Source of the DNA: Falciphora oryzae
Lineage: Eukaryota; Ascomycota; Sordariomycetes; Magnaporthales; Magnaporthaceae
Assembly (NCBI GenBank): GCA_000733355.1
Contig: JNVV01000082.1
Coordinates: forward strand, 72,997 to 136,139
Reading direction: 5' to 3'
DNA: 63,143 nucleotides
Shown: one piece after another, positions 12,090 to 32,343 of the stretch
How positions within the stretch are numbered: position 1 is the stretch's first letter
Layout of the letters: each line of letters starts with the position of its first letter
Made by a program: the position numbers and the translations under genes
The notes under the pieces: generated by a model
Databases searched by the model: none
Told to the model about the DNA's origin: nothing
What the model saw: only the letters and a program-made list of their open reading frames with translations

Positions 12090-13645
12090 TTACACCTACC
12101 AGAAAATCATAGTCCGAAGCTTTTTAAACGGCATAGACTTCCCTATTTGCACTAACATAAAATTAGGACGTAACCTAATCGACCGCAAATGGCTTAAAAA
12201 GTTTTTCCTTAATGCGGCTATTAATAAAATCGATAAAAGAGTTCGCCCTAGCATTAAAAGCTGGGACTTAAAAAAACCGATTAAAGCAAAGGAATATACA
12301 ACCTTTTCATTTTTTGCCAAAGGAGTTAAAAATAATAATTCTCCAAGCATCACCACCAAAACAGCTAGGGTTTGGATCGTTAACAAACTGGACGTAGGCT
12401 GTCTATTGGGAACCCCTTAGCTTAAACCTCGTCGTGCCTAAATCGACTTTGGTACCGACTTAATGCACTTCCCAAACGACCGATTTGCTATCCCCTTTAC
12501 CGTCGTTCGCAAAAGCAAGCCCGTGCTAAAGAAAGTTGTTAGCAAAAAAGCGTTCAGCCTCGCTCCTGGAAAAACAGCGGCCATTCCGGTTAAATACGCT
12601 GCCCTCCCGAAAGGCCGGCCCTTTCTTATAGCCGGCATTCACCCAACAGCAATTAACGCCCTAATCGACTGCAATACACCCCAGGTCTGCCTAATGCACA
12701 ACGTCACGAGCAAAACAGTCACGGTACTTCGCAAAACCCAACTCGCAACAATCCAAAAAAGCCTTAACCAAGTTCGATCCGCAATTAACTATAAGCAAGC
12801 CAAAAAGCTTATTAAGCATGAAGGAGGCAAAAGCTCAACGACCATAACCGAAAAGTCCTTGCTAATAGGAAAGGATTAAAACGTTATACTTTTAACTAAC
12901 CCTGCTAACGCTAAAATTTCGTTAAACCCCGAGTTTTTATAGGACGACGACTTTTGGGAAAGCTTAATCGCCGAAAACGATACGCACAACGTCGCCGACG
13001 ACCAGGTCCCTAAAAGCGGCCTCGTAAACGACCCGCCCCCTAAAAAGCAAAAAACCATGCTCAACTCACCCGAACCTTTCCTTAAAATCCTGGAAAAACG
13101 CTTTACTTTAGGCATTAAGCCACCTAACGAAGCACCTTGCATTATTACTAATAAAAGCATCCACGTATATAACGGAAAAACCCCTAAACAAACCCAAAAG
13201 CTCCGAAAAACCTGCGAAAAGTTCATAATCTGGGAGGATAATAGCAAACAGATCGATATCCCAAAGGAGGAAATAATACGTATCCCTTTAGTTGACGGAT
13301 ACGAAAAATACTCTAGCTTGCGATGCCGTCCCTACCCTGTATCAAAAAAGGACCGCGATATTATCAACGAAAGCTACGATAAGCTTTATAGGCATAAACG
13401 CGTGGAATTTATAAAAGGACCAACCCAGTTTGCGTTCCCTTGCTTCGTCGTTTAGCGCCAAATCCATAGCGAAAACAAATCAAAAGTCGTCACCGATTTG
13501 CGACCTTTCAATAAAGCCATTATACCCGACCCCTACCTTTTGCCCTTACAACAGGACGTCGTCAACTCCGTTAAAGGTAAGCTCTACATCACTATAGTCA
13601 ACGCCACAGCCTTTTTTTTCCAATTCCTAATTTATCCCAACAATC
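12090..13645 (+). pseudogene. Chromovirus 2 protease and N-terminal reverse transcriptase
   Basis: A protease-like segment at about 12095-12200 has ICTNIKLGRNLIDRKWL, where related elements have an Asp-Thr-Gly active site; here Asp-Thr-Gly is replaced by Asn-Ile-Lys. The frame then runs through 12463-12879 and 13057-13455 into the reverse transcriptase with VVTDLRPFNKAIIPDPYL and YITIVNATAFFFQFLIYP. The family has Asp where this has Asn in the IVNA motif. The frame is cut at YPNN by the LINE insertion. Confidence 0.85.
13628..13645 (+). repeat. Left target duplication of LINE B copy 1
   Basis: TAATTTATCCCAACAATC is repeated at 16232-16249 as TAATTTATCCCAAAAATC, one mismatch in 18. Removing 13646-16249 rejoins the reverse transcriptase reading frame. 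Confidence 0.88.
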
Positions 13646-14023
13646 CAGATTCGCACAGAAAAACTAGGATTGAATGCCTTCCTTTTCAGCAGGAATGTAC
13701 CCGACGCGGTAACGCCCTTGTGCGAATGCGGGAGCGGGCAAAAAAAAACAGCATGGCACGTGTTAACACAATATACCAAATGGGACTGGGCGCGGACCGG
13801 TACCGGCTTAGATTTGGTTTTAAGCCGAAAAGCATACTTCGAAATGTGGGAAAAAGGCGAAAAAACATACGCGATCGTATTAAAAATGATGTTTCGCACA
13901 GGGAAATTATTAGATTTCAAGGCAGCGAAAAAGCTAAAACGCATCGAAAGGGAGAGAAAAGCGGCAACGCGACAAACAGAACGCCACCAAGCCGGACCAG
14001 AACACCTACCGGAAGCCGTATAA
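13646..14023 (+). CDS. LINE B ORF2 C-terminal fragment
   Basis: An open fragment of about 125 codons, 5'-truncated by the insertion. It starts QIRTEKLGLNAFLF and has the cysteine-histidine cluster LCECGSGQKKTAWHVL, then FRTGKLLDFKAAKK near the end. Fungal Tad-like LINE ORF2 proteins end in this way after RNase H (QIRTEKIGL...C.CG....H...C...RTG.L..F). The last family Cys is Tyr here (LTQY). It cannot work alone. Confidence 0.82.
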   Translation, partial: QIRTEKLGLNAFLFSRNVPDAVTPLCECGSGQKKTAWHVLTQYTKWDWARTGTGLDLVLSRKAYFEMWEKGEKTYAIVLKMMFRTGKLLDFKAAKKLKRIERERKAATRQTERHQAGPEHLPEAV

Positions 14024-14112
14024 AAAAGAACGCCGAACGAAAGCACCAAAAAAAAGGACAGAAGAAAAAACAAAACCAGGATAAGGACCGAACCGTACCA
14101 AAAACGAAGCCA

Positions 14113-15550
14113 TCACTTATCGTCGTTATCATCACCTTCGTCGTCCATATCCCGAAACATTTCATTAGCAACCTTTTCCCGGGCATCCCGAAGGTATTTA
14201 TTAAAAATATCGGGGACCTTCGACTTCTTATCAAGCATTTCGAATTGGCAAAGGAAAAACGGTTAGCGGGCCGGAACAAGAACGGAAGAGAAGCGAAACG
14301 AGGGGACGCACGCGGAACTTAGCACGCTCCAAAGCCAACTTCTCCATCTTTAAACGATTGGATTGATCCCATTGGGAAACCAGGGCGGAAGCCTAGCTAG
14401 AAAGAGCTTGAGCTGGAGGAACCATGTTACCGGACGGGGACCGGACTAAAGCAGAGCTACTACCGGCAACGGAGGAAAGGACATTGCCCAAACCGACAGG
14501 AAACGGAGAGGGACGGGAAGAACCCGAACCAGAGGGGACACCGGAACGTTTGCCGAGGTCCTTCGCAGCGCGCGAGTAGGCGGCGATAGCGTCGACTAGG
14601 ACGCTGTGAGCTTTCTGTTACAAATAGACAACTAGGGTTAGCTAAAGGAACGCCGGAATTAGGGCGGAACAAAGGCGGGACAAACCCGAGCACGAGTTTT
14701 TTCGGCGGGAGACGCGACGTCGAAAGCAGCTTTGTCCTTGGGCAGGATAGAGATATATTTGGTGTGCGCTTTAAGCACATAGGCGACGGCCTCCTCGGTT
14801 CCGACGGGAGGCTACCGGGTTGTGAGCGAAACGGAATCGGGAAAAGAAGGGAATGGAGGAGGAGAACTTACCTACTGGCAGGAGCCGCGAAAAGCGCTGC
14901 AAGGAGCGCAGGTTAAACCTTTGGTGTTTACGAAAAGAAGGTCAGCACCGAGCAGGGAACGGAGCGGAAGAGGGACGCACTCGACCGGTAGCTGTAAGCC
15001 CGGATGGCGCCGGCACTTTCGGTGCCGTTCGCCAAACGCTAAAAGCAACCAACACAGATGGTAACCTTGGGACTGAAAGAAAAGTTAGCAGAACGACGGG
15101 GAAAAGAGCCGGAGAAGGAGCGGCAACGTACGACTTCAGCTGCGAATATAAGACGTAACTTGAGGGAACCTTTAAAGCGGCGCTGTATTCTACCTGATGG
15201 TAGAGGCGATACGGCTATAAAATAACGGAGTTAGCGAGAGGAGCGTAAGCGTGAGTGAAGCGGGAGAGGAACGCTTACGGCTTTGAGGCGAGGATTGACG
15301 GATTCGGGGACCTCGTCGCCGCCGTCGTTCTGACGCGGAGAAATAGGCGCGGTAGATATGGTGGAGGAGCCGAAAGAAAAGACCGAAGCAGAGGAGATAC
15401 CGGTAAGGTAAAGGCACGATCGCGTGCAGGAGAGCAGTGGCAGGTGTGGTAATGGTGGTGGTAGTGAGGGTGAAGAAGGAAGGAAGGGAAAAAAAAAGAC
15501 CTGGAGGAAGGAGGCCTATTTGTAGGTAGGGAAGGCGGGGCGGCACCGGG
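14113..15550 (-). CDS. Antisense spliced gene of LINE B, copy 1
   Basis: Unknown protein on the strand opposite ORF2. Exon ends visible by comparison with copy 2: ...NPRLKA, intron with GTAAGC donor, GCTAAC branch and ATAG acceptor (about 15223-15282), then PYRLYHQVEYSAALKVP. Further on are AVAYVLKAHTKYISILPK and LALERAKFR, a second intron (GTGCGT donor, GCTAAC inside), then IFNKYLRDAREKVANEMFRD and an acidic tail with a TGA stop at 14113-14115. These blocks align with copy 2. The start codon is not resolved; upstream exons look Ser/Pro-rich. Function unknown. Confidence 0.6.
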
Positions 15551-16231
15551 CCGCAGGAGGAAGGTAAAAAAAAGGTGACAGATCCGGAAAGCACGACCAA
15601 TACCGTCGATGATATAGCGAGAAGCTACACCGGGCCCGAGATCTACGAGGATAAAAACGATGGCGTGACATAAGGTAAGCCACAAAGCCGGAACCGACCC
15701 GCAACTACGGAAAAGACCTTCCGAAGTGGAGCTAAAAGCACCGTCCAAAAACCGGCCACTTCGGCCGAAGAAGGTAATTTACCCCGAATTATAAACATAA
15801 CAAATATACCGGGAAGCAAAAGCGGGCCGCTAGCGGCCCGGTCACTTCGGGGTAACAGTTATCAACCAATAAGGGGACAGCCCCAATAGCGCCGCTTCGC
15901 CCGGAGGAAAAGGCGAGGCGGCAACGCCCCGGCCGCGGCACGATTTCCTTGCGTTACCACATTACAATCACCCTTTTCCTTAAATTTACCTTTTTCCTTA
16001 AATCACCCACAATTACAAGGACGCTCTCGCGCAAAGACCCTTAAAAAGCAGGCGTGGGAAAAAAAGCAAACGGCAGCACTGTTTAACATAGGAAGCACCG
16101 TATACGAAAAGCAGACATGGTTTTTCCGCCCAGGAGGCGGGCCGCTAGCGACCCGCCGCCAAAGGTTTTTACATGTACACTAAAAGAGGGACCGAGGTCT
16201 AATTAGACAGAACGGAGTATAACTAAATAAA

Positions 16232-17440
16232 TAATTTATCCCAAAAATCGAAACAAGCTTATTATCGTCAGCCATCGAAGCCTTAAACGTATAAACGTCG
16301 CGATAATAAGCTTTCGAAATTCCCCAGCGTACGTCCAACGGTTTATAAACGGTTTTTTGCGTCCGCACAACAAATACTACAAAGCCTTTATTAACGACAT
16401 CATCATTTTTAGCGACTTATTCGAAAAGCACGTTAAGCACCTGGAAACGATTTTTAGCCTGTTCTAGAACAAAAATATTGCGATTTCCCTAGCTAAATCC
16501 TTTATCGGTTACCCCAGCGTTAAATTGCTGGGCTTTTACGTCGATTTTTTTGGCAAAACAAACACCGAGCATCGCATCCAGGGATTTCGAAACTAACTAA
16601 TGCCCACCAATTTAAAGGACCTCGAAACCTTTATCGGCGCCACCGGCTAACTGCGTTATATAATCCCTTACTACGCACGCCTCGTAAAGCCCCTCCAGCT
16701 ACGCAAAACGGAACTGCTCTTAAAAGGCCGCAAAAAGGGACGAATCGTCCCTAATAACTACGGAAAACGGGCAGCCTATTACCGCTTAACCCATTTCAAA
16801 CCTACCGAAGCCGAAACCCAATCTTTTAAAACTATTAAAAAGATGCTTTGCACTAAGCTCCGATTTTACCATACAAACCCGGATAGATAAATCGTCTTAC
16901 AAATCGACGGTAATCTCGAACGCGGGTTTAGCGTTATAGCCTTTCACGTTAAAAAAAGCTACAACTGGGACCGCTTAACCAAAGCGATCCCGGCCCAAAC
17001 CATCGAACCGATTATATTTATCTCTCGCTGCCTTCATAAGGAAAAGCTCAACTACGGCCCTTTAAAACTCGAGGTGGCCTATCTCGTCTGGGCTTGCAAA
17101 ACTCTACGCACAACTTTTTACTTAAACAACAAAAAGGTCCTTATGCTTACGGACCACGAATCGACTACAGGCATCGTTAACCGCACGACTTTGCTAACGT
17201 CGTTAACTGAGCGTATTAACCGGCGCCTTACAAATACGTCCATCTACCTTTCCAAATACGACCTTAAGGTCCTACATATCCCTAGCAAAATAAACTTCGT
17301 CCTAAACGCACTATCACGCCTACCCACGGCCAGCGACGACAAAAACCGGCAAAAAGAGACACCGCCGACCCTTAACGCGATGTACGACCACATCCTCCTT
17401 ATCGCCGAAGCCCAAATGGCCGAAACAACTCGCTAACGTT
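16232..17440 (+). pseudogene. Chromovirus 2 reverse transcriptase C-terminal half and RNase H
   Basis: The frame resumes after the LINE with SFRNSPAYVQRFINGFLRP and FINDIIIFS, where the family has a catalytic Y-V-D-D. The first catalytic Asp is Asn (AAC preceded by T, a RIP-context change), so polymerase activity is lost. Then come TG-stop-LRYIIPYYA (Trp to TAG), the RNase H DHESTTGI block and a closing LSRLP. 17074-17436 is open. Confidence 0.88.
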
Positions 17441-18639
17441 TTGCTAAAAGCTATATTAAGGACCCAGTTTACCGCAAAATTATACTTAACCTAGCTACTT
17501 CTTAAAGGTCTAAATGCAAGGTTAAAGGCAACGAAGCCGTTGCCAATGCTTCCAAAGTCAGGCATCCTTTCCGTATAGCCGACTATCTTCTCTATTTACG
17601 GGATAACAACGGCCACGAACGCCTCGTAATCCCGAAACCCCTAATTGCGAACTACCTGCGGGAGGTCCACGACGATAAACATCACTTCGGCCGATTCCGG
17701 ATGCTTAACGCCCTCGAAGACGTACATTTCCGAGCAAAAAAACGTCAGGTCGAACAGTATATCAGCAAATGCCATAAATGTGGCATAAACCGATAAAACA
17801 ACCAGCTTCCTATTGGAACCTTTCAACCCATTCAAGCCCCTCCTAAGCCCATAAGCACAATTACCATGGATTTCGTAATTGCACTCCCTATAGTCCCTTT
17901 GGAAGGCACCCTTTGGTCCCAGCGGAAATTTAACTCCTACAATGCGCTATTAACGGTCACCTACAAAACCTTTAAACGTACCCTAATCATCCCTAGCCAC
18001 AACGAATACACGGCACGAATATGGGGTAAACAATTCGGCCGCCAGCTACTCCTAGCCGACTGGTCCTGCCCTAAAGCAATTATTTCCAATAGGGACCCCA
18101 AATTCACCTCCGCCTTTTGGAACAGCCTGTAGCGCATTTTTAGGACCCGCTTGCAAATAACAGCAGCCTACCACCCCCAGGCTAATAGGCAATCCGAACG
18201 CAAAAACCAAACCGTTAAACTGGCTATCCGTCATCATTTAGCCACGACAAACGACCCCTAGGTTAACGTCATCCCTTCTTTACAGTGGAATTTAAACAAT
18301 GCTACTACAACGGCTCTTAGCTATAGCCCCTACGAGTATTTGTTTAGATTTAAAATCCCCGGACCTCTAAAGCTTACAACTTCCGCACGAATTCCCCAAA
18401 AAGTTGCAAAGCTCCGCTTTATACGTAAGCACTTCCGTAAAAACGCTTTATTTGCGATAAACGTCGCAGCCGCCGAGCAGAAGCGTATCTATAACTCCAA
18501 GCACCGTTACGAGGAATTCAATATCGGCGACAAGGTCTAGCTCACTATAAGCCACTACAAAACCAAAGGCAAGCACCTCGCCAACAAGGAAAAGCCCAAA
18601 CGATAGGGACCGTATACTATCGTTCGCAAGGTCTCCCCT
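17441..18639 (+). pseudogene. Chromovirus 2 integrase
   Basis: A zinc-binding region precedes YISKCHKCGINR (about 17760). The catalytic core has TMDFVIALPIV (first Asp, about 17870) and AIISNRDPKFTSAFW, where the family has SDRD, so the second catalytic Asp is Asn. Then come ITAAYHPQANRQSE and PYEYLF. Trp codons of NSLW and DPW are TAG. The C-terminal part reads KV-stop-LTISHYKTK, again Trp to stop. Confidence 0.87.
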
Positions 18640-18996
18640 TTGGCTTACGAGCTTAACTTTTCTAGCACCCCTACCAAAATACACCCGGTCATCAGCATCC
18701 AGCACCTCACTCGCTACAACTGCGACGACGATCCTTTCCAGCGCGTACCTCCGCCTCCGGGCCCTATTAAATACGACAACGACAAAAAAATCGACCCCGA
18801 CGCACACCTCGGAAAGGGCGACATTTTTAAGGTAGATAAAATCCTTGACCGCGAGGACACCAAACTGAAATCTGGAGTTATCCGCACCAAATACTTGGTG
18901 CGCTGGAAAGGTTACGGCCCTAAAGGAAACATTTGGGAGCCTTTGGAAAAGCTTAGCAACGCGGCTGATGCTGTTAAAAAGTACGAGGACCGCTAG
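18640..18996 (+). pseudogene. Chromovirus 2 chromodomain
   Basis: An open block with HPVISIQHLTRY, then VDKILDREDT and KYLVRWKGYGPKGNIWEP, the full aromatic cage and WEP signature of a chromodomain, followed by a short basic tail. It is the C-terminus of the integrase. The domain itself has no stops, unlike the sequence before it. Confidence 0.9.
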
Positions 18997-19196
18997 GCTA
19001 AAGCCCGGACCCTCGAAAGCAACAGGACCAAGGCCAAGGCCAAGGTTAAGGTCAAGGCCCAGGCTCAGGCAAAACCTTTAAGGCGTTCCGCACGCAAGGC
19101 AGGCAAGGACTGAAAACCTTATTAATTGTATTTACCCCTTCATATACAGTAGTTATCTCCCTAAGGACAGGGAGTTCCTTTTCATGCGCCGGCACT

Positions 19197-19405
19197 TGTC
19201 ACAGCCGGTAGGAGGTGGAAGGGGCCCACTAGTGGGGCAGGGAGACCCCAACCCTTATCGGCACGATAAGGGAGGTGGGGCTCCTGCAGAGTTTTCTCTG
19301 CAGGCCTGCCCGCCCGGCCTCCGGCCTCCTACTCTCTCCTGGACACTATCCTATCTTCACTACCACCAATCGTAATAGAACCAGTCCCCTCTACTGTTTA
19401 CGATA
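19197..19405 (+). repeat. 3' LTR of chromovirus 2
   Basis: 209 bp, TGTCACAGCC to GTTTACGATA. It differs from the 5' LTR by a handful of transitions (for example CCTAAACAC versus CCTGGACAC), mostly G-to-A in the 5' copy. Confidence 0.92.
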
Positions 19406-19410
19406 GGTGC

Positions 19411-20870
19411 TGTCGGCCGGCGGGTGTGCCGGAAAAGGGGTAAGGCCGGGTTAGGCGGGGGGGTCCTCGAAACCTCCCCTAGGCCCGGCCGGAGGTGCGG
19501 GGGACTAACGAGCCTACTATTAATCCTAATAGTACAAAGGAAAAGTGAAAAGTGTAAAGGAAAAAGGAAAAGGTTACAAGCGGGCTCAACGGGCCCTGTT
19601 GTTACCGTCCAGCGATAGTATAGTAGTTAATAGCTTCGACGAACGAAGCAAAAAGGGAGGGCTTTTGGAAAAGCCGTTTCCAATATCCCGGCCTATCGGA
19701 GGCCGGGGAAGGGTCCGTTTTAAGCCATTTGTTTTCCGCCGCTTTAGCCAACCTGCAAAATACAAGGTGGGAGGGGGACTTGTTTTTTCCGCAACGGCAC
19801 GGGTTATCGTTTTCGTGCTGGTACTTTCGGTAGTACCAGTCAAAGTCCCCATGCCCCGTGCGTGCGGCTATTAGCCGCTGTAACACTTTCCGGTGCAGCT
19901 GTAAAGCTTCGGGTGCGGGCCGTGGTGCCGGCGGGAGGCCTATAGCCTTATACCGGTCCGGTAGGTTGTTTTCGTACCAGGCGTTTCGGGCGTCCCGGGA
20001 CATTTTCCGGGCTAAAGCCTTTACTCCGGCCACCGTTGGCTTGAAATGTTGGGGTATCGGCAAAGCCGATCCCAGCTTTGCTTTGGCATCGGCCTTTTCG
20101 TTTCCGGGGATTCCCGTATGACCCGGGGACCAACGGACGTGTACCCGGTGTTTGTCCATAAAAAAATGGACCTCTTTAAAAGCCCTTTGTGAACTGTCAG
20201 GGGCCGTGCTTAGGAAGCCGTTGGCCGCCGAAGTGTTATCGAGGCACAGGTGGAAAGTGCAGTTGCGGAAGCTCTAAACGGCTTTGCGGAGGCCCATCCG
20301 GCCCCCTTCCGCTTCGCCGTCGAACACTTCCGCCGGGTGCGCCAGCCGGCCGTGCCCGGAAAGTTTGCGTTGGCCGGCCTGGTGGATTACCCAACCGTAT
20401 CCAACTGCCCCGTTATCCGCTTTGGACCCGTCGCTGTATACTATAACGTCGGTAGGGGGGAGGGTGCGAAGCCACGCTATAAATGCTTTAGCGGCTGTTT
20501 GCTTTTTTTGTGTGGCCACCGTGAACCCTGTATATCTATAAGGGAGATACGCCGGGCGGGTGCACGCCGGAAGGAGTCCGGCCGTCCTTTGTAACGAGGT
20601 CGTAAGCCTGCCGGGCAGGCCTGCTCTAGGCCCCCGGGCGTTGAAAATCGGCTTGGCCGCTGCGGCTAGGGGGTGATCCTCCGGAACCGTCTTTATGCGG
20701 GCCGCAAAACGGAAGCGGGCTTGATCTAAAAGCGCTTCGGCGCCAGGAATGCCGGATTCGTAGTGCAAAGCGTTTATCGGTATGGTTTTCCAAGCTGGTA
20801 CCACTGCCCGGAGGGACGTTTGTAAGGCTTTATCAACCCGCTCGATTAAATGGCCTTGCCGGGTAGTTTT
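19411..20870 (-). mobile_element. LINE family A, 5'-truncated body
   Basis: The 3' half of a Tad-like LINE on the minus strand. 19411-19601 is its 3' UTR, which aligns with 41150-41230 (CCCCGGCCGGGCCTAG block). It continues across chromovirus 2 into 8718-8430. The 5' limit near 20870 is where coding similarity stops. Confidence 0.85.
19602..20804 (-). pseudogene. LINE A ORF2: RNase H and C-terminal zinc cluster
   Basis: Two long open segments, 20804-20274 and 20159-19602, belong to one ORF2. The first has the RNase H start VIVYSDGSKADNGAVGYGW with catalytic Asp. The second has HVRWSPGHTGIPGNEKADAK, the RNase H closing His/Asp motif, then RLIAARTGHGDFDWYY and CRCGKNKSPSHLVFCRLAK, the terminal C-x-C...H...C cluster. 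A stop near 20276 interrupts the join. No endonuclease or reverse transcriptase remains. Confidence 0.88.
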
Positions 20871-22319
20871 AGTGGCTTAGACCAGATAAGGGGCGAAGGT
20901 TACACAAGTCACTTTTTCTCCACTCCTAGCTATAGCATTAATTTAACCAATTATAATCCCCACACAATTTCGCCGCCATCTGGTTTGAGGTCGGATGGTG
21001 CGAAAAGCGTTATTGATTTTTTAAATCCCACCAAACCACCAAACCACCAAAATTGCATTTTTCCATCCCCTTTACCATACCACGCGTGCAATTCGTATCT
21101 ACCAGGCGATTTATTCGAATTTGCGCTTACGAAAATTAAATTCCTACTATTTTTGCAATTTTTGCAATGTTTTCCCCATCGTCTTTTTCCTATTTGCTTG
21201 CCTTCCTTTCCGGGCAGCCGCCGCAAAATGCCTTTGATGCCGCGGTCCTTACGTCGGATTTTACGATTCCCTTAATATTACCACTTCCGCCGCTGTCGCT
21301 CGAATCCGACTTTGACTTCGAATCCGACTCCGAATCCGATACGCCGTTAAATATTTTCCCCAATTTAACGCTTCGTCCGCCTGCTTCCGATTCCCTTTCC
21401 GTCGCCTAGCATCGCCGATTGCAAAACCGTCGACCAAAGGTCGCCGCATCTTCCTACGAACCCCGCCCCCACTTCCTATTTAACGATGCTTTCGAAGCGC
21501 CCGACGAAACCAATATATTCGCCGATAATTTAGTAAACGAAATATTAAAATGCTAGCGCGCCCGTTACTATATTATCCGCGGGCAGCATCATTTTACTTT
21601 CGCACATTTTATTAAATAATGGGCGTACTAGCGCCGCAGCGACGGTTAACGCAATGGACTTCGCTTTTATTAATTCCGCGCTTTTTTGCAAAACCCCGAA
21701 GTTAAAAGCGCTTTCTTCGAAACCGGCGTCGAGGTCCTATTCGATGGCGAAAGCTAACCCGTAAACGCGTACCATACCACCTTCCGCCGAAAGCTCGATA
21801 ACCTTACCGTATTTAACCCTTTTAATACTTTCGACCCCGAATAGTATTGTAAAAGGGAAAACCTTTACAGCGCCAAAAACATTTGCGACGTCATTTGGGT
21901 AAAAAAAAACTTTGTCCAAAGCGATACGCGCTTTTAAAAACATGCGCCTTACTTATACCAGTTGTTAACTGCTGTTATGGCCAATTCCCGCGCCGATTAG
22001 GACTCCTACGGCCCCAACCAACATACCCCCAACCCTATAATAAAAGGGGGACCGTCCCCGCCTAAAAAAGACAAAAACATTGGCCCCCGGTTTTTAATCG
22101 CGAGTTTAATAGCATACGCGCGGGCGCCTAAAAAAAGCAACTATTTGGGGCGGATATTTGGGGTGTATTAGGTGCAAAGCGGGGTTACCAAAAAGGTAAC
22201 GAATGTGCTCGCGAAATTCAGAATTAGTTCGTTTTACAAGGTTACGAAAAAGTAAATGGGCGGGCTGGTAGATAGGGCTATAGTACGTATACCAGCTAAA
22301 TAATATATAATTATATAGT
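20871..22319 (+). pseudogene. RIP-damaged unknown open frame
   Basis: Mostly coding-like on the plus strand with TAG or TAA at probable Trp/Gln sites. 21167-21409 is open, and reading through stops gives segments such as YHTTFRRKLDNLTVF, NICDVIWVKKNFV and YLYQLLTAVMANSRAD to about 22260. It has the look of the N-terminal part of a large fungal transposon-borne protein, but I cannot name the family. It stops just before the MITE. Confidence 0.4.
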
Positions 22320-22321
22320 TA

Positions 22322-22768
22322 ACGTGGTTCACCAGTGAGCGACACAGACCAGCGAGCGACACACTTGCAAAATGCATATTAAACGGCGTTTTTTTTCAGT
22401 TAAATAACTCGCCCAATTTAAGCCTAAAATTAACCAAATTTAAACAAGTTATATTTAACAATGTAGAAAATTTAATTTAATTTTCTTAAATTTTTATTAT
22501 TACTCCTTTAAGGTTAGTTCGCAACACTGTATAATACACTGTGTAAATATGCAAACTAACCTTAAAAGAGTAATAATAAAAGTTCAAGAAAATTAAATTA
22601 AATTTTCTACATTGTTAAATATAACTTGTTTAAATTTGGTTAATTTTAGGCTTAAATTGGGCGAGTTATTTAACTGAAAAAAAACGCCGTTTAATATGCA
22701 TTTTGCAAGTGTGTCGCTCGCTGGTCTGTGTCGCTCGCTGGTCTGTGTCGCTCACTGGTGAACCACGT
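22322..22768. mobile_element. Palindromic foldback MITE
   Basis: A near-perfect palindrome of about 447 bp with ends ACGTGGTTCACCAG and its complement, flanked by TA (22320-22321 and 22769-22770). Subterminal GCGAGCGACAC-type units are repeated and the short centre holds ACACTGTATAATACACTGTG. No coding capacity. The TA duplication suggests a Tc1/mariner-type transposase acting in trans. Confidence 0.9.
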
Positions 22769-22924
22769 TAGTTAATTATAAATATTTTATTTAGAAAAAC
22801 TTTAAACGTATCGCACTCGATCCAAGTTTCATTTTCGTTTACGACAATTTTAACTTTATAAACCGGGTCCAAGATTTCGGTTATGGCCGTAAAAACGTTA
22901 TGCGGAACATTACCATTTGCTTCG

Positions 22925-22997
22925 GCCCTCGTGGTGCAGTGGTTCAGCACTAGGTGGTCCTCTTCGGAGGGCGCAGGTTCGATTCCTGCCGAGGGCA
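22925..22997 (+). tRNA. tRNA-like sequence, probably a pseudogene
   Basis: The length is a canonical 73 nt. Acceptor stem GCCCTCG pairs fully with CGAGGGC, the D stem is GTGC/GCAC, the T arm GCAGG-TTCGATT-CCTGC is perfect, and box B is GGTTCGATTCC. CCA follows directly at 22998-23000, and a TTTTT run (23005-23009) could end Pol III transcription. But the 17 nt in the anticodon-arm position (AGGTGGTCCTCTTCGGA) cannot form a stem, so no anticodon can be assigned. An encoded CCA is unusual in a nuclear gene. Best read as a tRNA-derived or degenerate copy. Confidence 0.5.
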
Positions 22998-23009
22998 CCA
23001 GGTCTTTTT

Positions 23010-23829
23010 GTGTTTCGCGCGAACGTGCACAAAAAGGCCTCGAACTACCCCGACGTCCTACGTGAAGAACCCACAAAGGAAGCCCCACAGACAACAACCT
23101 TTATCAACTATCGACGAACCCACAAACCCGCATCGAAGGAAAAAGCCACTCGTTAGGCTTGCATTACGGGGTCTCTTCCCCGAACCGTGCCCGCACCCCT
23201 AGATTGGTCACCTAGGAGGCGTGCGTGCACGTGGGAAACAAAAGAACAAACAAGCACGAGGATAAACCGGACTGGTCCACCGGGATAAGCTGCACCGATA
23301 TCGAAGCGAGGTTAAACCGAAGATACCAATTCCGATAAAAGAGATAACGCCTGATAACAGAGTGGGACGGACAGAAGATGGCATTCAACGAAGGGAACAA
23401 AGGGTACGCCGCGACGAGGCGGCGGGCTCTATGCAGGAGACAAGGGGCTAGCTAGCGAGCCCCGGCTTGGATGGAGTGGAACCCACTGGATTTGGACCTC
23501 GTTAATAGGCACGCTCGTGGTCGTGCAGGGTGCACGCTCGTGTTCGTGCTTGTTTGATTACTAATGTTCTTAGATAGTTACAAGGAACTAGCACACGAAG
23601 CGGACTCGCAGCGAAGTTGTTGATAGGAGAGTTTCACCCGACCTTATTTAACGATCTGTCGGATCGGAGGCACGGTTTGTATCCTACTAGCTACCCCGAA
23701 CAGAAGATACTCCCTATGGCCTATAGAGGTCGAACAGGGTAAATAAATCTATATAAACCTACGTGCCGCTTTTGGATTTATATTTAAACGAAAAGGTTAT
23801 AAATACGGAAAATAAATAGGAAAAAACCG
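23010..23829. other. No gene recognised
   Basis: No coding similarity seen. 23490-23560 has a short direct repeat around GCACGCTCGTG. The 5' limit of LINE B copy 2 lies somewhere here or just after; I found no clear target duplication. Confidence 0.4.
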
Positions 23830-24575
23830 GGATAACGCAGCGCATTAACGAAATGATAGCGAAAGTAGCGGACCGTTTCCAAAAACTCGGCTATAAAGAA
23901 CGAAAAAAAAGGCCCCACCCCTAAAGCGGACAAACGAAAAAAAAGTGGGCAGTACGATAGGACCGGCCCGAAATAACGCTAAAACCGAAACGAGCACCCG
24001 CCCCCCACGGAAAGGATTGGAAATCCAAACATAAGCACGCAAAGCGCTGGAACCCCAACGTAACAATGGAATAGAAGTTAAAAATGGCCAACATAACGGC
24101 AACAGCGAGGAAAACGAACCGGTACAAAACCGCGTGCCCAACGGACAACCCCCTGTTTACGGAAAAAATGGTCGAATACCACGAAGGGATACCAAAAGCA
24201 CACAGCGCGGTAATAATCCAAATTAAAACGGAAAAACTAGGGCTAAACTCGTTCCTATTCAGCAAAGGCGTACCCGACGCGGCGACGCCACTGTGCGAAT
24301 ATGGCAGCGGATAAAAGGAAACAGCGTAGCACGTATTAACCCAATGCGCCCGATAGGACAAACAGCGGGAAAGCACCGGGCTGGCGCAAACAAATAGCCG
24401 GAAAGCGTACTTCGAGCTATGGGAAACAGGGGGCACACCGTTTAAAGAAGTAGCACGCATAATGTTTCGCACAGGAAAACTATTAAATTTCAGGGCGGCT
24501 AAAAAGGCAAAAAAAAAACGCATAAGGAGAAAAAAGGAAAAGCAACGCTACCGAGCCGAAAACGAACCGAATTAA
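23830..24575 (+). pseudogene. LINE B ORF2 C-terminus, copy 2
   Basis: Read through stops, it carries IIQIKTEKLGLNSFLFSKG, LCEYGSG-stop-KETA-stop-HVLTQC and IMFRTGKLLNFRAAKKAKK, matching copy 1 residue by residue. The two stops in the zinc cluster are Gln/Trp-type. It ends with a Lys/Arg-rich tail. Confidence 0.78.
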
Positions 24576-24691
24576 AGAAAACCATAAAAAAGCAAACGAA
24601 AGCACCATACCCGAAAAGCGAAAAAAAAAAAACCACGCAAATACCGACGCCACGCAACCGAATCGCTACAGGGGGAAAACCGAGGAAACTA

Positions 24692-26109
24692 CTAAGGGGG
24701 GTTAGCAAAAGGACGACGACGGAGGCCATTATCGTTTATATCCCGCTTCATTTCATTAAAAACGTCCTTCCGGCATTCCGACAGTATTTTATCGAAAACG
24801 TCCTCGGTAACGTTTTGCCGAAGGGAAACTTAAAAAATACCGTAGAGTTAGCGGACTAAAAACGGATAGCAAAAGCGAAAAAACAAACACCCACCCGTAT
24901 TTTAGCCCGCTTAAAAGCCAGCTTTTCCATCCGAGTGCGATTTTCCGTGCTCCATTTAGCAACGATCCTTTCGGCCCAGCCCGATATGGCCTGGCCCGGG
25001 GGCACTATGTTACCGGAGGGGGAGCGGACCAAACCCGAACCACCAAAGGCAGCCATAGTAGCGAAGGCATTCCTAAAACTGGCAGGGAACGAACGGCCAA
25101 ACCCGGCGCCGGAAGGAATACCGGACCGTTTAAAAATATCTTTCGAAATACGGCAATACCCGGCGATCGCATGCTCCAAACCGGTATGGCGAGTTTGGAA
25201 GGAAAAAAAATGTTAGAATAGGACAAATAGCGGCCCGGAATAAAGGCGGTATATATTTTGGCAGCAGTATGGATATCCGCAAACGCAGTATCGCGGTCCG
25301 CACTGGTTTTAGGTAGGGATTGCATATAGCGATGGTAGGCACGAAAAACAACGGCAACCTGGTCCTCGGAATTAGTGGGAGGTTACCGCGACGGGAACGA
25401 AACGTTAGCGACGAAATCGCGAGCGGATACCAAAAGGGAGCGACCAACCTAAACGCAGGCACCACGCAACTAAGTGCAGCCCATACAAGTAAGGCCTTTA
25501 GTAGCTGGAATCACCATATCAGCAAAACCGGAAACGGAGCGGAAAAAAGCAGGATAAGGAGCGCTACACACAGGCTTTGTAATAGCACCAGCGCACAATA
25601 CCGGCACCGTCGATACCGTTAGCGAAACGCTAAAAACAGCCAACGCACATTTTACACGAGGGACTGGGAAGTTAGAAAGGCGGAATAGGAAAAACAACGG
25701 GGCGGCAAACATACACCATATCGTCGTAAAAAACGCAATTGTCGGGGACCTCGACCGCCGGCAAATACTCCGATTAACTGTACAGGCGGTAAGGCTGGGA
25801 AAAAAAAAGGAAGTTAGCAATAAAATAGGGAAAGGAACGGAACAAAGCCGCACTTACAGCTTTAATACGAAGGTCCTGGACGCCGTCGCCCGAGCCGCCG
25901 TCGCTCGAGCCGCTGCCGTCGTTTTCGTCCGCAAACGGAAGGCGACTGCGAGAACGACTGCTACCGCTACTACTACCACCACCACTACCACTAGCTGCAG
26001 CGGCGGGAGCGGCGCGGCCACCGCCCGTAGCTCCGCTGCCGGGATTGCTACCGCGACCGCTACCACCACTACCGCGGGGAGATTTGGGAGCTTTATTTTT
26101 AGGAGCCAT
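24692..26109 (-). CDS. Antisense spliced gene of LINE B, copy 2
   Basis: Starts at ATG 26109 (MAPKNKAPKSPRG), followed by a Gly/Ser/Ala-rich stretch and an acidic DENDGSGSSDGG segment. Exon 1 ends ...DLRIKA at 25858. The intron 25795-25857 (63 bp) has GTAAGT, GCTAAC and a pyrimidine-rich CCCAG. Exon 2 begins PYRLYS, then TAA where copy 1 has CAG (Gln). Later blocks are VAVVFRAYHRYMQSLPK and KLAFKRAKIR, an intron of about 92 bp (24803-24894), then VFDKILSECRKDVFNEM, with a TAG stop at 24692-24694. Middle splice sites are unresolved. No known domain. Confidence 0.6.
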
Positions 26110-27100
26110 ACTGCAAAAAAACAGGAAACGGAAGGGAAACGAAACGCGAGCGAGCAGGAACCTAAATGCAGGTAGGAAAAAAGGAAGCGCGGGCAGAAGG
26201 GCAGGACCGGAAGCGGTGGTAAAAAAAAAGCGAAAGGGAGAAAGGAAGGAAGGAAAAAGGGCCTTTTGTAGCTGGGAAAAAAAAGGCCGGTGGAAACCCG
26301 GATCCGGAAGGAAATAAAAGGAAATCACCACCAAAAACCACAACGCACGATAACGCAGCAACAAAAAAAAGTCACCCAAATAACGCGATCCAAAAAAAGG
26401 GAAGCAACTAATAAAAAGATCAAATGCAAGCCACAAAGGCGGACCCGAACCGCACGCGGAGCAACGGCCCCGGAAACGGGCACCTACCAAAAGCTGAATC
26501 ACTTAAAGTTACGAAGCAAAACGCTAGACCCGGAGGGCCCGCCCGCGGCTGGGACCCGGAACAAAGCCGGGCCAACTTACGCGAAAAAGCCACATTAAAG
26601 CGCCATAACACGAGTACCAATACAAACATTCCGCTATAAGGGCGAAACCCGACACCAAAGCGCTGCCCCGGTTGGGACCCGGAGCGGAGCCGGGCTAACT
26701 TACGCGGAAAAGCCACACCAGAACGCCATAACACGAATACTAACACAGCCGTTTCGCTACGAGGGCGAAACCCGGCACCGAAACGCTGCCCCGGCGCAAT
26801 ATACCTTCATTCCTTTACGTACTTTCCTTTTATTCCACTAATTACAAGGACGTTTCTACGACGGAACCTTTACGAGCAGTCGCATAAAAACAAGCAGACG
26901 GTACTACTGTTTAACATAGTAGGACCGTATACGAAAAGCAAATATAGTTTTTACTCCCAGGCTCCGGAGCGGGGGCGACACGCACCCGAGCACCCGAGAA
27001 CGAGTTTAAAGGTTTTTATATGTAAATACTACATAGTAGAGGCACCGAGGTTTTATATAGATATAACGGTAGTATGAATATATATATATATATATATAAA

Positions 27101-27811
27101 TAGATCGCAAAAGCAAATAACCCGGCCGACGCTATAACAAAAAAGCTGCTAAATAAAACTTTAAAAGACCTCGTAAACAGCAATTCAACTACCGTAAAAA
27201 TAAAAAAATAGGTAAAGCGGAACTACAAATAAAAAAAAGCCAAAAAATGCACACAAAATCGTTTTCTATGGTACCAAAACGCCAAAATCTTTAAAAACAA
27301 CGCAAAAATCGACAAAACAAAAATGCTCAAATCAAAAAAGCAACAAACGACCATACCGAAATAACAAACGATTTCACAACCAAACTTTTTCCAAATATCC
27401 CGTCAAACTTTCCTTCACTCCTTCTCCTCGTCATCTCTGCCATTTCCCAACCAAATAACTTCGTACATCCTTAAAGCGGCCGCGCGGCCCGCCGCCTTCC
27501 GCTCTAATCGCGTCATTATTAGGAAATTAGCATTAGCATCCTCCTAATCCCTATCCTTAACCGCCAACTGCAGCATGCATTTGGTAGTAATACGCCATTT
27601 ATTAAAGGTTTAAAAATTATAAAAAAACACGTTAGTAAACGCACCTAAAGCACTAAACTAAAAAAACAAACTTACCTTTTTGTCGCAATTATCGCGACCC
27701 CATTCCACTATAAACTTAAACGCTAAACGCAACGCAATCGAGGGATTAGAGGATAATTAAAACGAGCTTTAAAAAAAAAAGGGAAAATCGAAATGCTTAC
27801 ATAAACTAACA
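27101..27811. other. A/T-rich, no gene recognised
   Basis: Strongly A-rich on the plus strand with no open frame of note. A G/C block (GCGGCCGCGCGGCCCG) sits at about 27478. Probably decayed transposon sequence. Confidence 0.5.
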
Positions 27812-28261
27812 AGTGTAGCCCGACGCGTACAGCCAATAGCGCTTTTTAACCGGGATTGTATCCTGACAGCTATCGCCTTCCTTTATTTTACCGGCGAAAG
27901 CGGACTTTAAGCAACCTAAGCAAAGGATAGCGCGTAAAGCGCCCTTTCCACCGCGCGGACCAGGCGCAAAAACCGTTTTGCCACCAACAGCAGGCCTAAC
28001 GATCTTAATAACCGACTTTTTTTTATCCAACGAAGCAGGCGCAAAACCGGCGTTTTGGAAATCGGCATTATCGTCAAACGGGTTCAGGAATTAATCGTTA
28101 GCGACGCCGAAAGCAGGATTAACCATCGCAAAATCGAAAGCCTCAACGGCAAAGCCTTAGAGCCGCTTTAAGGATTTACCACCGCTGCGCGCGACAAATC
28201 GAGGCTTCCGAGCCTTTTTGGCGACCGCACCAAATTTGGCGTTGCCCTTTTTATTGCCCAT
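27812..28261 (-). pseudogene. Small Lys-rich, Cys-rich protein gene, RIP-damaged
   Basis: From ATG 28261 (MGNKKGNAKFGAVAKKARKP) the frame is coding-like to a stop at about 27812, about 150 codons, broken only by two TAA codons that would be CAA (Gln): after SLKRL and in AND-stop-FLNPF. The C-terminus has LCLGCLKSA...C...C, a spacing I associate with a common unnamed fungal family (PC..C..A...G...C......C). No function known. Confidence 0.5.
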
Positions 28262-29115
28262 AGTAACGAAAGCGATCGAAAGGTCAACCGACAAAAAACT
28301 AATCGAATAAAGCGGGTAAAAAATGCTGCAAACAAAAGGCAATAACAGGCAGACGATCCGGATTAACGAGGTTTACCAAATCAAATTACCCGACCTTTTA
28401 AAAGCCGGAAGGAAAGCTTTTTATAAAGCCTGGACCCGGCTTGCAAAAAGTCCTTAATCTGCGTTCCTATTATCCCGCATTAAATTACAACCTAAATAGC
28501 CCGTTAAGGTTATTTATTGCTATTATGCTTTCTAATTGCACCACCCACCGCTATGCCCGCGTACCGCAAGCCAAATCCGGTGGACCCCATCACGTCATCG
28601 TTCCTATTATCGCTATTAAAAGCGACGAACCGCTTTAAAAGCGGCTATTTACTTTTTTCCTAATCCGGATTACTTGGTTCGGAGATTCCCTTTATTATTT
28701 ACCTTACAAAATCCAATAAAGCTTGGATCACGGGATCTGTCACGTAAAAGGATTTCCTAATTGCCTGTACAAAAAGAAAAAGTTGCCAGTGTTGGATTGC
28801 ACTGGCCTGTGCAGGCAATCGGCAAAGGCCAGAGAGAGTCGGATCCTCCGGTCCCGTAATCTCTAATCACGGGATCCGAGGACCCGCAAGCCCGCGGAGG
28901 TTGGGAGCAGGGGAAGGCCCCTTTAGTGATTTGGATCGTGTATATATAGCCTCCCTTTTGCTCCCTCTCTATTAAATAGATTCCTTTCCTCTTCGTGCAT
29001 AAGAATAGATTGATCCTCTGATATAAAGGATTATTGTTTACCTTCTTTGGAGATCTCCGAGCCCAACAGGAGTACCACTCCTACCAACAACTACTATTTT
29101 TATTACTATTTTTAC
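28262..29115. other. Non-coding; promoter- or LTR-like segment
   Basis: No coding frame. Bases 28743-29100 look like a promoter or an old LTR: GTATATATAGCC at about 28938, a pyrimidine-rich start region, then ACCTTCTTTGGAGATCTCC. ATCACGGGATC occurs twice (28732-28742 and 28866-28876). No partner repeat is present in the window. Confidence 0.3.
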
Positions 29116-29117
29116 TA

Positions 29118-29988
29118 ACGTGGTTCACCAGCGAGTCGGTCAAACCACTAAGTCGATCACTTCGAAATCCCATATTAAACGCGATTTTCGACACCCTTGC
29201 TAACTTGGCCAATTTAAACACAAATTTAACCAAATTTAAAAATGTTATATTTAACTAAATAGGAAATTTAATTTAATTTTTTTGGATTTTTACTACTACC
29301 CCTTTAGGGTTAACGTGGTTCACAAGCGAGTGGCGCACACAAGCGAGTGGCGCACTTGAAAAATGCATATTAAACAGCGTTTTTTTTCGATTAAATAACT
29401 CGCTCAATTTGCAGCTAAATTCTACTAAAATTTAAATAGTTATATTTAATTATGTAATAAATCTAAATTAATTTTTTCAGATTTTTATTTTTACTTTTTA
29501 AGGTTAGTTTTGCAAAATTGTAAAAAATTAACAGTGTTTTACACAGTGTTTGAAACTAACCTTAAAAAGGAAATAATAAAAATCTGAAAAAATTAATTTA
29601 GATTTATTACATAATTAAATATAACTATTTAAATTTTAGTAGAATTTAGCCGCAAATTGAGCGAGTTATTTAATCGAAAAAAAACGCTGTTTAATATACA
29701 TTTTTCAAGTGCGCCACTCGCTTGTGTGCGCCACTCGCTTGTGAACCACGTTAGTTTAATATTTTACACAGTGTATTATATAGTACTACGAACTAACCTT
29801 AAAGCGGTAATAATTAAAATCCAAGAAAATTAAATTAAATTTCTTTTTTAGTTAAATATAACCTGTTTAAATTTGGTTAAATTTAGGCCTAAATTGGCCG
29901 AGTTAGCAAGGGTGTCGAAAATCGCGTTTAACACGTGATTTCGAAGTGATCGACTCGGTGGTTTGACCGACTCGCTGGTGAACCACGT
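29118..29988. mobile_element. Foldback MITE hosting a second MITE
   Basis: Ends ACGTGGTTCACCAGCGAGTC and its complement, TA at 29116-29117 and 29989-29990. The arms (29118-29310 and 29754-29988) are complementary once the inner MITE is removed. It sits inside a TTTTTATTAC microsatellite. Confidence 0.88.
29313..29751. mobile_element. Inner foldback MITE
   Basis: A 439-bp palindrome, ends ACGTGGTTCACAAGCGAG and complement, TA at 29311-29312 and 29752-29753. It is inserted near the centre of the outer MITE. The arms are almost identical, so it is young. Confidence 0.9.
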
Positions 29989-29990
29989 TA

Positions 29991-30060
29991 CTATTTTTAT
30001 TACTATTTTTACTACTATTTTTATTACTATTTTTACTACTATTTTTATTACTATTTTTAC
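29991..30060 (+). repeat. CTATTTTTATTA microsatellite
   Basis: Tandem units of CTATTTTTATTA and CTATTTTTACTA. The same units lie just before the first MITE (29090-29116), so both MITEs entered one A/T-rich array at TA. Confidence 0.8.
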
Positions 30061-30202
30061 TAACGTGGTTCATCAGTGAGTGGGTCAAATCAGCTCGTGG
30101 GTCACTTTAAAATCCCATACTAAACGCCGTTTTCGACCCCCCGGTTAAATCCACCAGTTTTTAATAAAATTCCATGAAAATTTAATATGTTATATTTAAC
30201 TA

Positions 30203-30632
30203 ACGTGGTTCACCACCGAGCGGCACACACCACCGAGCGGCACACGTCAAAATCCTATATTAAACGGCGTTTTCTTTCGATTAAATAACTCGCTCAATTT
30301 GGTGCTAAATTCCACCAAAATCAAACCAGTTATATTTAACTTTACAAAAATTATAATTTAAATTTTCCGCATTTTTACTATTACTCCTTTCAGGTTAGTT
30401 TTTAACACTGTGTAATATACTGTATACATTTTTTAAATTAACTCAAAGGAGTAATAATAAAAATGCGGAAAATTTAAATTATAATTTTTGTAAAGTTAAA
30501 TATAACTGGTTTGATTTTGGTGGAATTTAGCACCAAATTGAGCGAGTTATTTAATCGAAAGAAAACGCCGTTTAATATAGGATTTTGACGTGTGCCGCTC
30601 GGTGGTGTGTGCCGCTCGGTGGTGAACCACGT
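30203..30632. mobile_element. Foldback MITE inside the 30063 MITE
   Basis: A 430-bp palindrome, ACGTGGTTCACCACCGAG and complement, TA at 30201-30202 and 30633-30634. It has the same centre motif (AACACTGTGTAATATACTGT) as the others but different arms. Confidence 0.9.
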
Positions 30633-31594
30633 TATATAACCGAATTTATAATTATTTTTCCACATTTTTATTATTACTATTTTAAAGTGATTTACTATTT
30701 ACACACAGTGTTTTGCACAGTGTTTAAAACTCACTTAAAAATAATGCTAATAAAATTTTGGAAAAATAATCATATATATATATATATTCATACTACCGTT
30801 ATGTCTATATAAGACCTCGGTACCTTTACTATATAATATTTATATATAAAAACCTTTAAATTTGTCCTCGGGTGCTTGGGTGCGTGTCGCCCCCGCTCCG
30901 GAGCCTGGGAGTAAAAACCATATCTGCTTTTCGTATACGGTCCTGCTGTGTTAAACAGTAGTACCGTTTGCTTATCTTTATGCGATTGCTCGTAAAGGTT
31001 CCGTCGTAAAAGCGTCCTTATAATCAATGGAATAAAAGGAAAGTACGTAAGGGAATAAGGGTGTGTTACGCCGGGGCAGCGTCTTAGTGCCGGGTTTCGC
31101 CCTCGTAGTGAAACGGCTGTATTAGTACTTATGTTATAGCGTTCTGGTGTAGCTTTTCCGCGTAAGTTAGCCCGGCTCCGCTCCGGGTCCCAACCGGGGC
31201 AGCGCCTTAGTATCAGGTCTCGCTTTCGTAGCGGAATGTTTGTATTAGTACTCGTATTATAGCGCCCTAATATGGCTTTTTCGCGTAAGTTAGCCCGGCT
31301 TTGCTCCGGGTCCTAGCCGCGGGCGGGCCCTCCGGGTTTAGCGTTTTGCTTCGTAATTTTGGGTAATTTAGCTTTTGGTAGGTGCCCGCTTCCGGGGCCG
31401 TTGTTTCGCGTACGGTTCGGGTCCGCTTTTGTAGCTTGTATTTGATTTTTCTATTGGTTACTTCCCTTTTTTTAAATCGCGTTATTTGGGTGACTTTTTT
31501 TTGTTATTGCGTTATCGTGCGTTGTGGTTTTTAATGGTAACTTCCCTTTATTTCCTTCCGGATCCGGGTTTCCACCGGCTTTCCTTTTTCCAGC

Positions 31595-31602
31595 TATAAA
31601 AG
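31595..31602 (+). promoter_or_regulatory. TATA box of the LINE B antisense gene
   Basis: TATAAAAG about 160 bases before the ATG at 31756. In copy 2 the matching site reads TACAAAAG. The context is pyrimidine-rich afterwards, like fungal core promoters. Confidence 0.6.
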
Positions 31603-31755
31603 GCCCTCTTTCCTTCCTTCCTTTCTCCCTTTCGCTTTTTTTTTACCACCGTTTCCGGTTTTGCCCTTTTACCCGCGCTTCCTTTTTTCCTGCCTGCATC
31701 TAGGTTCCTGCTCGCTCGCGCCTCGTTTCCCCTCCGTTTCCTATTCTTTTGCAGC

Positions 31756-32178
31756 ATGGCTCCTAAAAATAAAGCTCCCAAATCTCCCCGCGGTGGTGGT
31801 GGTGGCGGTCGCGGTGGCAATCCCGGCAGCGGAGCCACGGGCGGTGGCCGCGCCGCTCCCGCCGCTGCAGCTAGTGGCAGTGGTGGTGGTGGTGGTAGCG
31901 GTGGCAGTCGTCCTCGCAGTCGCCCTCCGTCTGCGGACGAGAACGACGGCAGCGGCTTAAGCGACGGCGGCTTGGGCGACGGCGTTTAGGACCCTCGTAT
32001 TAAAGCTGTGGGTGCGGCTCTGCTCCGTTCTTTTCCCTATTTTGTTGCTAACTTCCTCTTTTCCTCCCAGCCCTACCGCCTATATAGTTAATCGGAGTAT
32101 TTGCCGGCGGTCAAGGTCCCCGACAACTGCGTCTCTTACGACGATATGGTGTATGTTTGCCGCCCCGCTGTCCTTCCT
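31756..32178 (+). pseudogene. Antisense gene of LINE B, copy 3, 3' truncated
   Basis: From ATG 31756 (MAPKNKAPKSPRGGGGG) it follows copy 2 closely. A TAG at about 31987 stands where copy 2 has CAG (Gln). The intron 32008-32070 has the same 63-bp length and position as copy 2, with the donor changed to GTGGGT and GCTAAC kept. Exon 2 (PYRLYS, stop, SEYLPAVKVP) is cut at 32178 by the LINE's 5' truncation. Confidence 0.65.
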
Positions 32179-32343
32179 GGAAAAATAATCATAAAATCGG
32201 CTATATAGTTAAATATAACATATTAAATTTTCATGGAATTTTATTAAAAATTGGTGGATTTAACCGGGGGGTCGAAAACGGCGTTTAGTATGGGATTTTG
32301 AAGTGACCCACGAGCTGATTTGACCCACTCACTAATGAACCAC

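Follow-up and report, generated by a model that had tools for sequence, protein, structure and literature searches.

An APE-type LINE family in Falciphora oryzae with a predicted convergent, intron-bearing gene on the antisense strand

The window analyzed here is a stretch of 63,143 nucleotides from the ascomycete Falciphora oryzae (contig JNVV01000082.1, positions 72,997 to 136,139), and it holds three copies of a single family of long interspersed nuclear elements (LINEs). In this family, the open reading frame (ORF) called ORF2, which encodes an APE endonuclease and a reverse transcriptase (RT), is followed by a predicted second gene that lies on the other strand and reads toward ORF2, and then by the 3′ tail. 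This arrangement recurs throughout the genome, the positions and phases of the introns in the antisense (AS) gene are the same in two diverged subfamilies (A and B), and the predicted protein shows constraint. The usual picture of a LINE is a single RNA that bears one or two ORFs in the sense direction. We lean toward the reading that this LINE has its own antisense accessory gene, which would have been inherited with ORF2 since the A-B split and likely encodes a helper protein that acts in trans.

Structure and recurrence of the element

A search of the 50.2-Mb genome with the 3′-terminal 1.4 kb as the query gave at least 44 matching stretches (40 of 104 candidates were scored), and 20 family loci were taken for comparison, including locus L024, which is copy 2 of the window. 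Eleven of the 20 extend from a common 5′ start through to the 3′ end, and the full-length element is ~7.7 kb long, as in locus L033. Up to its first stop, the ORF2 of L033 comprises 1052 residues, in which a Pfam scan detects an RT domain (PF00078, E 1.6e-38) and APE endonuclease domains (PF03372 and PF14529). RNase H (PF00075) was not found in these 1052 scanned residues, and ~90 following residues lie outside the scan. An RNase H domain after the RT is typical of the Tad1 clade, and the element may be a fungal Tad1-like LINE. Protein searches with ORF2 returned 58 relatives. The organism is named for eight of these (seven fungi and one tick), and they include two Chaetomium globosum proteins with 40 and 46% identity. 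CHGG_06803 of C. globosum is among the relatives at 39–48%. A search of viral and prokaryote contigs with ORF2 yielded nothing useful.

Flanking repeats of 16–23 bp with at most one mismatch border 10 of the 11 full-length copies, the exception being L039 with 8 bp. Among seven other tested loci, L022 has 15 bp and L028 has 17 bp, and the remaining five have 7–11 bp, with nothing clear. Target duplications of at least 15 bp are present at 12 of the 18 loci tested (two of the 20 fall outside the test), with repeat lengths taken as read, without a shuffled control. Given its variable 5′ ends, fixed 3′ end, simple-repeat tail, and target duplications, the element is an APE-type LINE, that is, a non-LTR (long terminal repeat) retrotransposon. 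It resembles other fungal APE-class LINEs in the APE and RT domains of ORF2, the target duplications, the 5′ truncation, and the simple-repeat tail, but differs from them by the extra convergent gene with introns on the other strand.

The pairing of ORF2 with the AS gene was examined with two queries. The ORF2 C-terminus gave 95 matches (all 96 candidates scored), from which 15 rows were dropped (14 short second pieces of listed copies and one weak match of 47 residues), leaving 80. Of these, 76 extend to the end of the query; three belong to distant LINEs (28–31% identity), which leaves 73 family members. At 55 of these 73 ORF2 ends, AS exon 6 is no more than 2.5 kb away and on the other strand, and the distance between the two is 583–587 bp at 32 loci (subfamily A), 573–574 bp at 11 loci (subfamily B), and elsewhere between 404 and 1218 bp at 12 loci. 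The second query, exon 6 itself, gave 65 matches (all 66 candidates scored). The 11 loci with the 573–574-bp spacing coincide exactly with 11 B-type AS exons, and their ORF2 ends comprise ten long matches with 47–55% identity to the A query and the short fragment of copy 1. Ten exon 6 matches have no nearby ORF2 end: L025 and L035, in which the match to the full-length element sets in only after most of ORF2 and continues to the 3′ end; four beside the 3′ ends of LINEs; two close to the start of a contig; and two short fragments. At the ORF2 ends of the three distant LINEs (C36, positions 127436, 165963, and 176864; 28–31% identity), no AS exon 6 was detected nearby.

The window is crowded with nested repeats, and one might suppose that unrelated elements came to lie side by side, or one within another, by chance. 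This explanation was rejected on the near-fixed spacing at 43 loci and on the enclosure of both parts by one target duplication, and we give it practically no weight. Chance pairing is further excluded by the genome-wide recurrence together with the protein conservation described below. The initial annotation had reported, for copies 1 and 2, an ORF2 C-terminus followed by a gene on the opposite strand, with both parts of copy 1 enclosed by one 18-bp target duplication. Both descriptions were borne out, ORF2 being on the plus strand, the gene on the minus strand, and the duplication having one mismatch; because gene and ORF2 lie within the same duplication, they moved as one unit.

Introns and coding constraint in the antisense gene

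The AS gene was modeled on locus L025, where seven predicted exons with 345 codons and no in-frame stops run on the strand opposite ORF2 and toward it. The six introns measure 63, 51, 76, 66, 62, and 65 nt (a range of 51–76 nt), and the branch sites are of the CTAAC type, with CTGAC in intron 5. Donors begin with GT at 81 of 96 sites across 16 distinct A copies. In L022, the stop codons of ORF2 and of the AS gene are ~0.1 kb apart. The predicted protein opens with a Gly/Ser-rich stretch, which is followed by a CxxC motif, an LTCxxCx6C motif, and a conserved C-terminal part, and by motif alone it is perhaps zinc-finger-like.

Some of the signals first listed for this gene stand, and others do not. 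The GT donors, CTAAC-type branch sites, and AG acceptors are present, as are the conserved PYRLY and RAK blocks and the NEM end. The GTAAGT donor occurs in copy 2, but the least mutated relatives have GTGGGT. A start codon is found in copy 3 (ATG at 31756), and exon 1 of copy 2 encodes MAPKNKAPK, but copy 1 has no in-frame ATG. At the position of the reported TATA box, among 18 copies (the 17 distinct aligned ones and copy 3), only copy 3 has TATAAAA and the other 17 have CTACAAA or TTACAAA, which rules out a TATA box as a family feature.

Subfamilies A and B were compared through L025 and copy 1, and all six intron positions and phases are common to both. Intron lengths (A/B, in nt) are 63/64, 51/59, 76/62, 66/60, 62/71, and 65/70, and the lengths of exons 2 to 7 are 80/83, 92/92, 47/47, 126/126, 300/303, and 141/129, with equal phases. 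Copy 1 retains GT at six of six donors and AG at five of six acceptors. All 16 aligned A copies still have the introns, as does copy 1 (17 distinct aligned copies, L024 and copy 2 being counted as one), and a scan of 49 records (363 kb) revealed no exon-exon junction; the best match there has 11 mismatches in 36. This agrees with the earlier proposal that the introns survive retrotransposition because the RNA that is copied would be the ORF2 strand, in which the AS introns would not be read as splice signals.

Selection can be judged from the A-B comparison only, because A copies differ from L025 almost solely by transitions, mostly C-to-T and G-to-A, with 0–7 transversions over ~2.8 kb. These differences resemble repeat-induced point mutation (RIP), and the ratio of nonsynonymous to synonymous substitution rates (dN/dS) within A is therefore uninformative. 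Between L025 and copy 1, residues are identical at 128 of 255 aligned codons (~50%). Shuffling of the same substitutions gives an expectation of 75 ± 5.4 identities, and 128 was reached in 0 of 2000 trials. By the NG86 method, dN is 0.47, dS is 1.88, and dN/dS is 0.25, well below 1 and in keeping with the conservation first proposed; the ORF2 C-terminus (L022 versus copy 1) gives a similar dN/dS of 0.21, with 71 of 120 residues identical versus 47 ± 3.7 after shuffling, and both ratios are rough because dS (~1.9) is near saturation and inflated by RIP-like mutation, copy 1 being RIP-damaged. The five other frames keep 59–105 identities, with 105 in one reverse frame, in an alignment that was built on the protein in the true frame and so favors that frame. 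Constraint is visible in the protein and not in raw nucleotide identity, which differs little between introns (0.55–0.61) and exons (0.54–0.64).

It might be argued that a regulatory antisense RNA is what matters and that its coding capacity is incidental, as with the spliced antisense transcripts of HeT-A in Drosophila. LINE-family elements with conserved spliced antisense transcripts have indeed been described (PMC5537684). However, one frame of one strand is the best kept here (128 identities versus 59–105 in the five others, in the alignment built on that frame), and the splice phases preserve that same reading frame, which makes this explanation very improbable.

A more serious competitor holds that a host gene was captured in reverse orientation in the 3′ region of the LINE before the A-B split and has been carried along without any role for the element. 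Such a passenger could be expected to look host-like and to contain introns, as the AS gene does; the absence of a known domain and the existence of gene-less copies at five loci would also suit it. However, a passenger would be expected to drift, especially where RIP acts, and the constraint on the AS protein between A and B (0.25) is about that on ORF2 (0.21). Moreover, the free-standing host gene family that the initial annotation had considered did not appear: no free-standing host relative is among the 65 exon 6 matches, although a much diverged relative would escape this query. We consider capture of a passenger unlikely, while giving it real weight.

Several of the observations above weigh against an accessory gene of the LINE, namely the identities in the other frames, the choice of alignment, the roughness of the ratios, and the small difference between introns and exons, and further points have the same tendency. 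The comparison lies within one species and uses copy 1 as the one B copy read. Transversions in exons by codon position number 65, 50, and 75, a third-place lean that is not significant (p 0.08). A stop-free AS frame exists in only one of the 17 distinct copies (L025), and there the acceptor of intron 2 is altered. The whole AS protein found no homologue among 5.8 billion proteins, a search in which the Gly-rich start may have absorbed candidates, and neither did an A and B alignment of exons 2–7 searched against the same proteins. Pfam gave no domain, and PDB gave three weak matches only (E 0.29–0.7) to the low-complexity part. Finally, one whole-gene deletion recurs at five loci, and the AS gene seems not to be obligatory, as described below.

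Gene-less copies and a possible role in trans

Exon 6 was not found near 21 of the 76 ORF2 ends, three of which are the distant LINEs. Ten of the 21 were classified: these three, five loci with one shared junction, and one locus each on C57 and C87. The shared junction fuses the end of ORF2 with sequence from upstream of the AS gene, such that the whole gene is deleted. It was read directly on C12, C16, and C98, and was recognized at two loci on C69 by pattern only (0 and 1 mismatch); the pattern gave 29 matches in all, of which the 24 with two mismatches were left uncounted, as some of them are gene-bearing copies (for example, those of L025 and L033). The C57 locus carries another, separate deletion, and the C87 locus (L037) lacks ~0.7 kb of the AS gene.

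The copies on C12, C16, and C98 are full ORF2 matches yet have no AS gene, contrary to the expectation that every ORF2-bearing member would carry one. LINE copies without the gene do exist, five of them sharing one deletion junction, and the argument that the initial annotation would have drawn from full-length copies of that kind applies in part. On their 3′ sides, the C12 and C16 copies, the only pair compared, have different flanking sequences. Therefore, the deleted form likely moved and spread. Because five loci share the gene-deleting junction, the AS gene seems dispensable in cis.

This derived gene-less form would fit a gene whose product helps in trans. The predicted AS gene is also kept by many 5′-truncated copies, its whole span being present at six of the nine non-full-length loci among the 20. 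The AS copy with the fewest mutations, that of L025, itself belongs to a LINE whose match to the full-length element starts at the end of ORF2. Together, the gene retained in truncated copies and the gene-less form at five loci point to action in trans. According to the mechanism we envision, an RNA polymerase II promoter near the 3′ end of the LINE would drive the AS gene toward ORF2, and its introns would persist because retrotransposition would copy RNA of the opposite strand, which would hold no splice signals there. Truncation of LINEs typically affects the 5′ end, so a 3′-terminal gene with its own promoter would stay whole in many dead copies. These dead copies could supply the AS protein, perhaps a regulator or an anti-silencing factor, to live elements. 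A bolder form of this idea, which we put forward tentatively, is that of an ambisense LINE whose dead copies are still at work: the 3′ gene would escape both 5′ truncation and intron loss, truncated copies would serve as helper genes, and gene-less copies would live off the supply.

The gene might instead serve the host, like the LINE-derived effector genes reported in powdery mildew. There is precedent in fungal gene families that evolved from LINE ORF1 (PMC4641428). However, the protein has by eye no signal-peptide-like start (MAPKDKAPK, then Gly/Ser-rich sequence), and most copies are broken, with stops in 16 of 17. We therefore regard service to the host as improbable. The notion that the AS gene is itself a reversed relative of ORF1 was also rejected, since tblastn with the AS protein against the initial 6.2 kb of the 20 loci, all set in one orientation (E 1e-3), found only a second AS copy in L025.

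Certain features of the family have counterparts elsewhere. HBZ of human T-cell leukemia virus type 1 and other antisense retroviral genes lie on the strand opposite the retroelement RNA, have their own 3′ promoter, and are spliced. The AS gene is predicted to share these features, and it shows protein constraint on the antisense strand (dN/dS 0.25; 128/255 identities versus 75 ± 5.4). HBZ differs in that its carrier is an LTR retrovirus rather than a LINE, and the proteins are not known to be related. Human L1 ORF0 is likewise an antisense coding sequence in a LINE, but it is short, is located at the 5′ end, and has a different origin. Drosophila HeT-A is a non-LTR element with an antisense promoter and conserved spliced antisense RNAs, but these transcripts are not presented as a conserved protein gene in the portion of the source at hand (PMC5537684). 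Some nuclear group I introns contain antisense homing-endonuclease genes with a short (47 nt) spliceosomal intron, for which an RNA polymerase II transcript is proposed (PMC9548176). Here too, a mobile element has an antisense protein gene with a spliceosomal intron, but the element resides in ribosomal DNA and is not a LINE, and the gene encodes the mobility endonuclease itself (PMC9548176). Bdelloid LTR and Penelope-like elements carry extra ORFs and thus also gained accessory genes; they differ in element class, and the portion of the source at hand describes no antisense or intron-bearing accessory gene (PMC5408684). Among the titles and abstract openings returned by literature searches, which did not extend to Repbase, none describes a conserved, spliced protein gene on the antisense strand of a LINE.

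If the family does keep a second, convergent, spliced gene under selection, it would show how introns and a gene with its own control can persist through the RNA cycle of a retroelement, and 5′-truncated copies would be potential helpers rather than junk. Gene-bearing copies, copies with the shared deletion, and two subfamilies together form a natural set in which a need in cis or in trans is directly testable.

Copies in the window and neighboring elements

Copy 1 (13646–16231, plus strand) is a 5′-truncated member of subfamily B that retains the element between the ORF2 C-terminus and the 3′ end, and its target duplication is at 13628–13645 and 16232–16249. The ORF2 C-terminus occupies 13652–14023 (plus strand) and agrees with L022 ORF2 at 71 of 120 aligned residues. 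The predicted AS exons lie on the minus strand: the 3′ part of exon 1 (15279–15344; GTAAGC donor, start not found), exon 2 with PYRLY (15132–15214), exon 3 with the first CxxC (14981–15072), exon 4 with LTCxxCx6C (14872–14918), exon 5 (14686–14811), exon 6 (14312–14614), and exon 7, which ends in NEMFRDMDDEG and has a predicted acceptor without AG (14113–14241). Upstream of the gene is a TATA-like CTACAAATAGG (15515–15525, minus strand). Copy 1 interrupts a Gypsy-like element at ~12463–19000 (plus strand), which has a weak RNase H-like piece and a chromodomain at its end.

Copy 2 (23755–27102, plus strand) is an A-type LINE without its 5′ part and with a (TA)n 3′ tail; its target duplication is 10–11 bp at best and not clear. 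The ORF2 C-terminus has several in-frame stops (23763–24587, plus strand; ends placed by eye). On the minus strand, the predicted AS exons 1 to 7 are at 25858–26109 (MAPKNKAPK, Gly/Ser-rich), 25715–25794, 25572–25663, 25449–25495, 25257–25382, 24895–25194, and 24689–24829, and they contain five in-frame stops. A TATA-like CTACAAAAGG, positioned from the sequence, lies upstream of the gene (26262–26271, minus strand). Also upstream, in the LINE 3′ region, are 123-bp tandem repeats (26541–26795), whose number seems by eye to differ among loci.

Copy 3 (30775–32177, minus strand) is an inverted A-type copy whose 5′ side is cut inside AS intron 2, flanked by a perfect 16-bp target duplication (30759–30774 and 32178–32193). 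On the plus strand, its predicted AS exon 1 spans 31756–32007 with the donor at 32008, and exon 2 spans 32071–32150 with the donor at 32151. Of the 18 copies compared, this one alone has a true TATA, the CTATAAAA at 31594–31601 (plus strand). Nested inverted-repeat elements that share a AACGTGGTTCA-like terminus occupy 29118–32340, and copy 3 seems by eye to be inside one of them.

Two other features were seen in the window. A fragment of a different LINE at 19602–20804 (minus strand) matches an RNase H domain in part (E 1.7e-4, below the cut-off for that domain family). A tRNA-Asp (GTC) is predicted at 22925–23000 (plus strand), near inverted-repeat elements, and is perhaps part of a tRNA-derived repeat.

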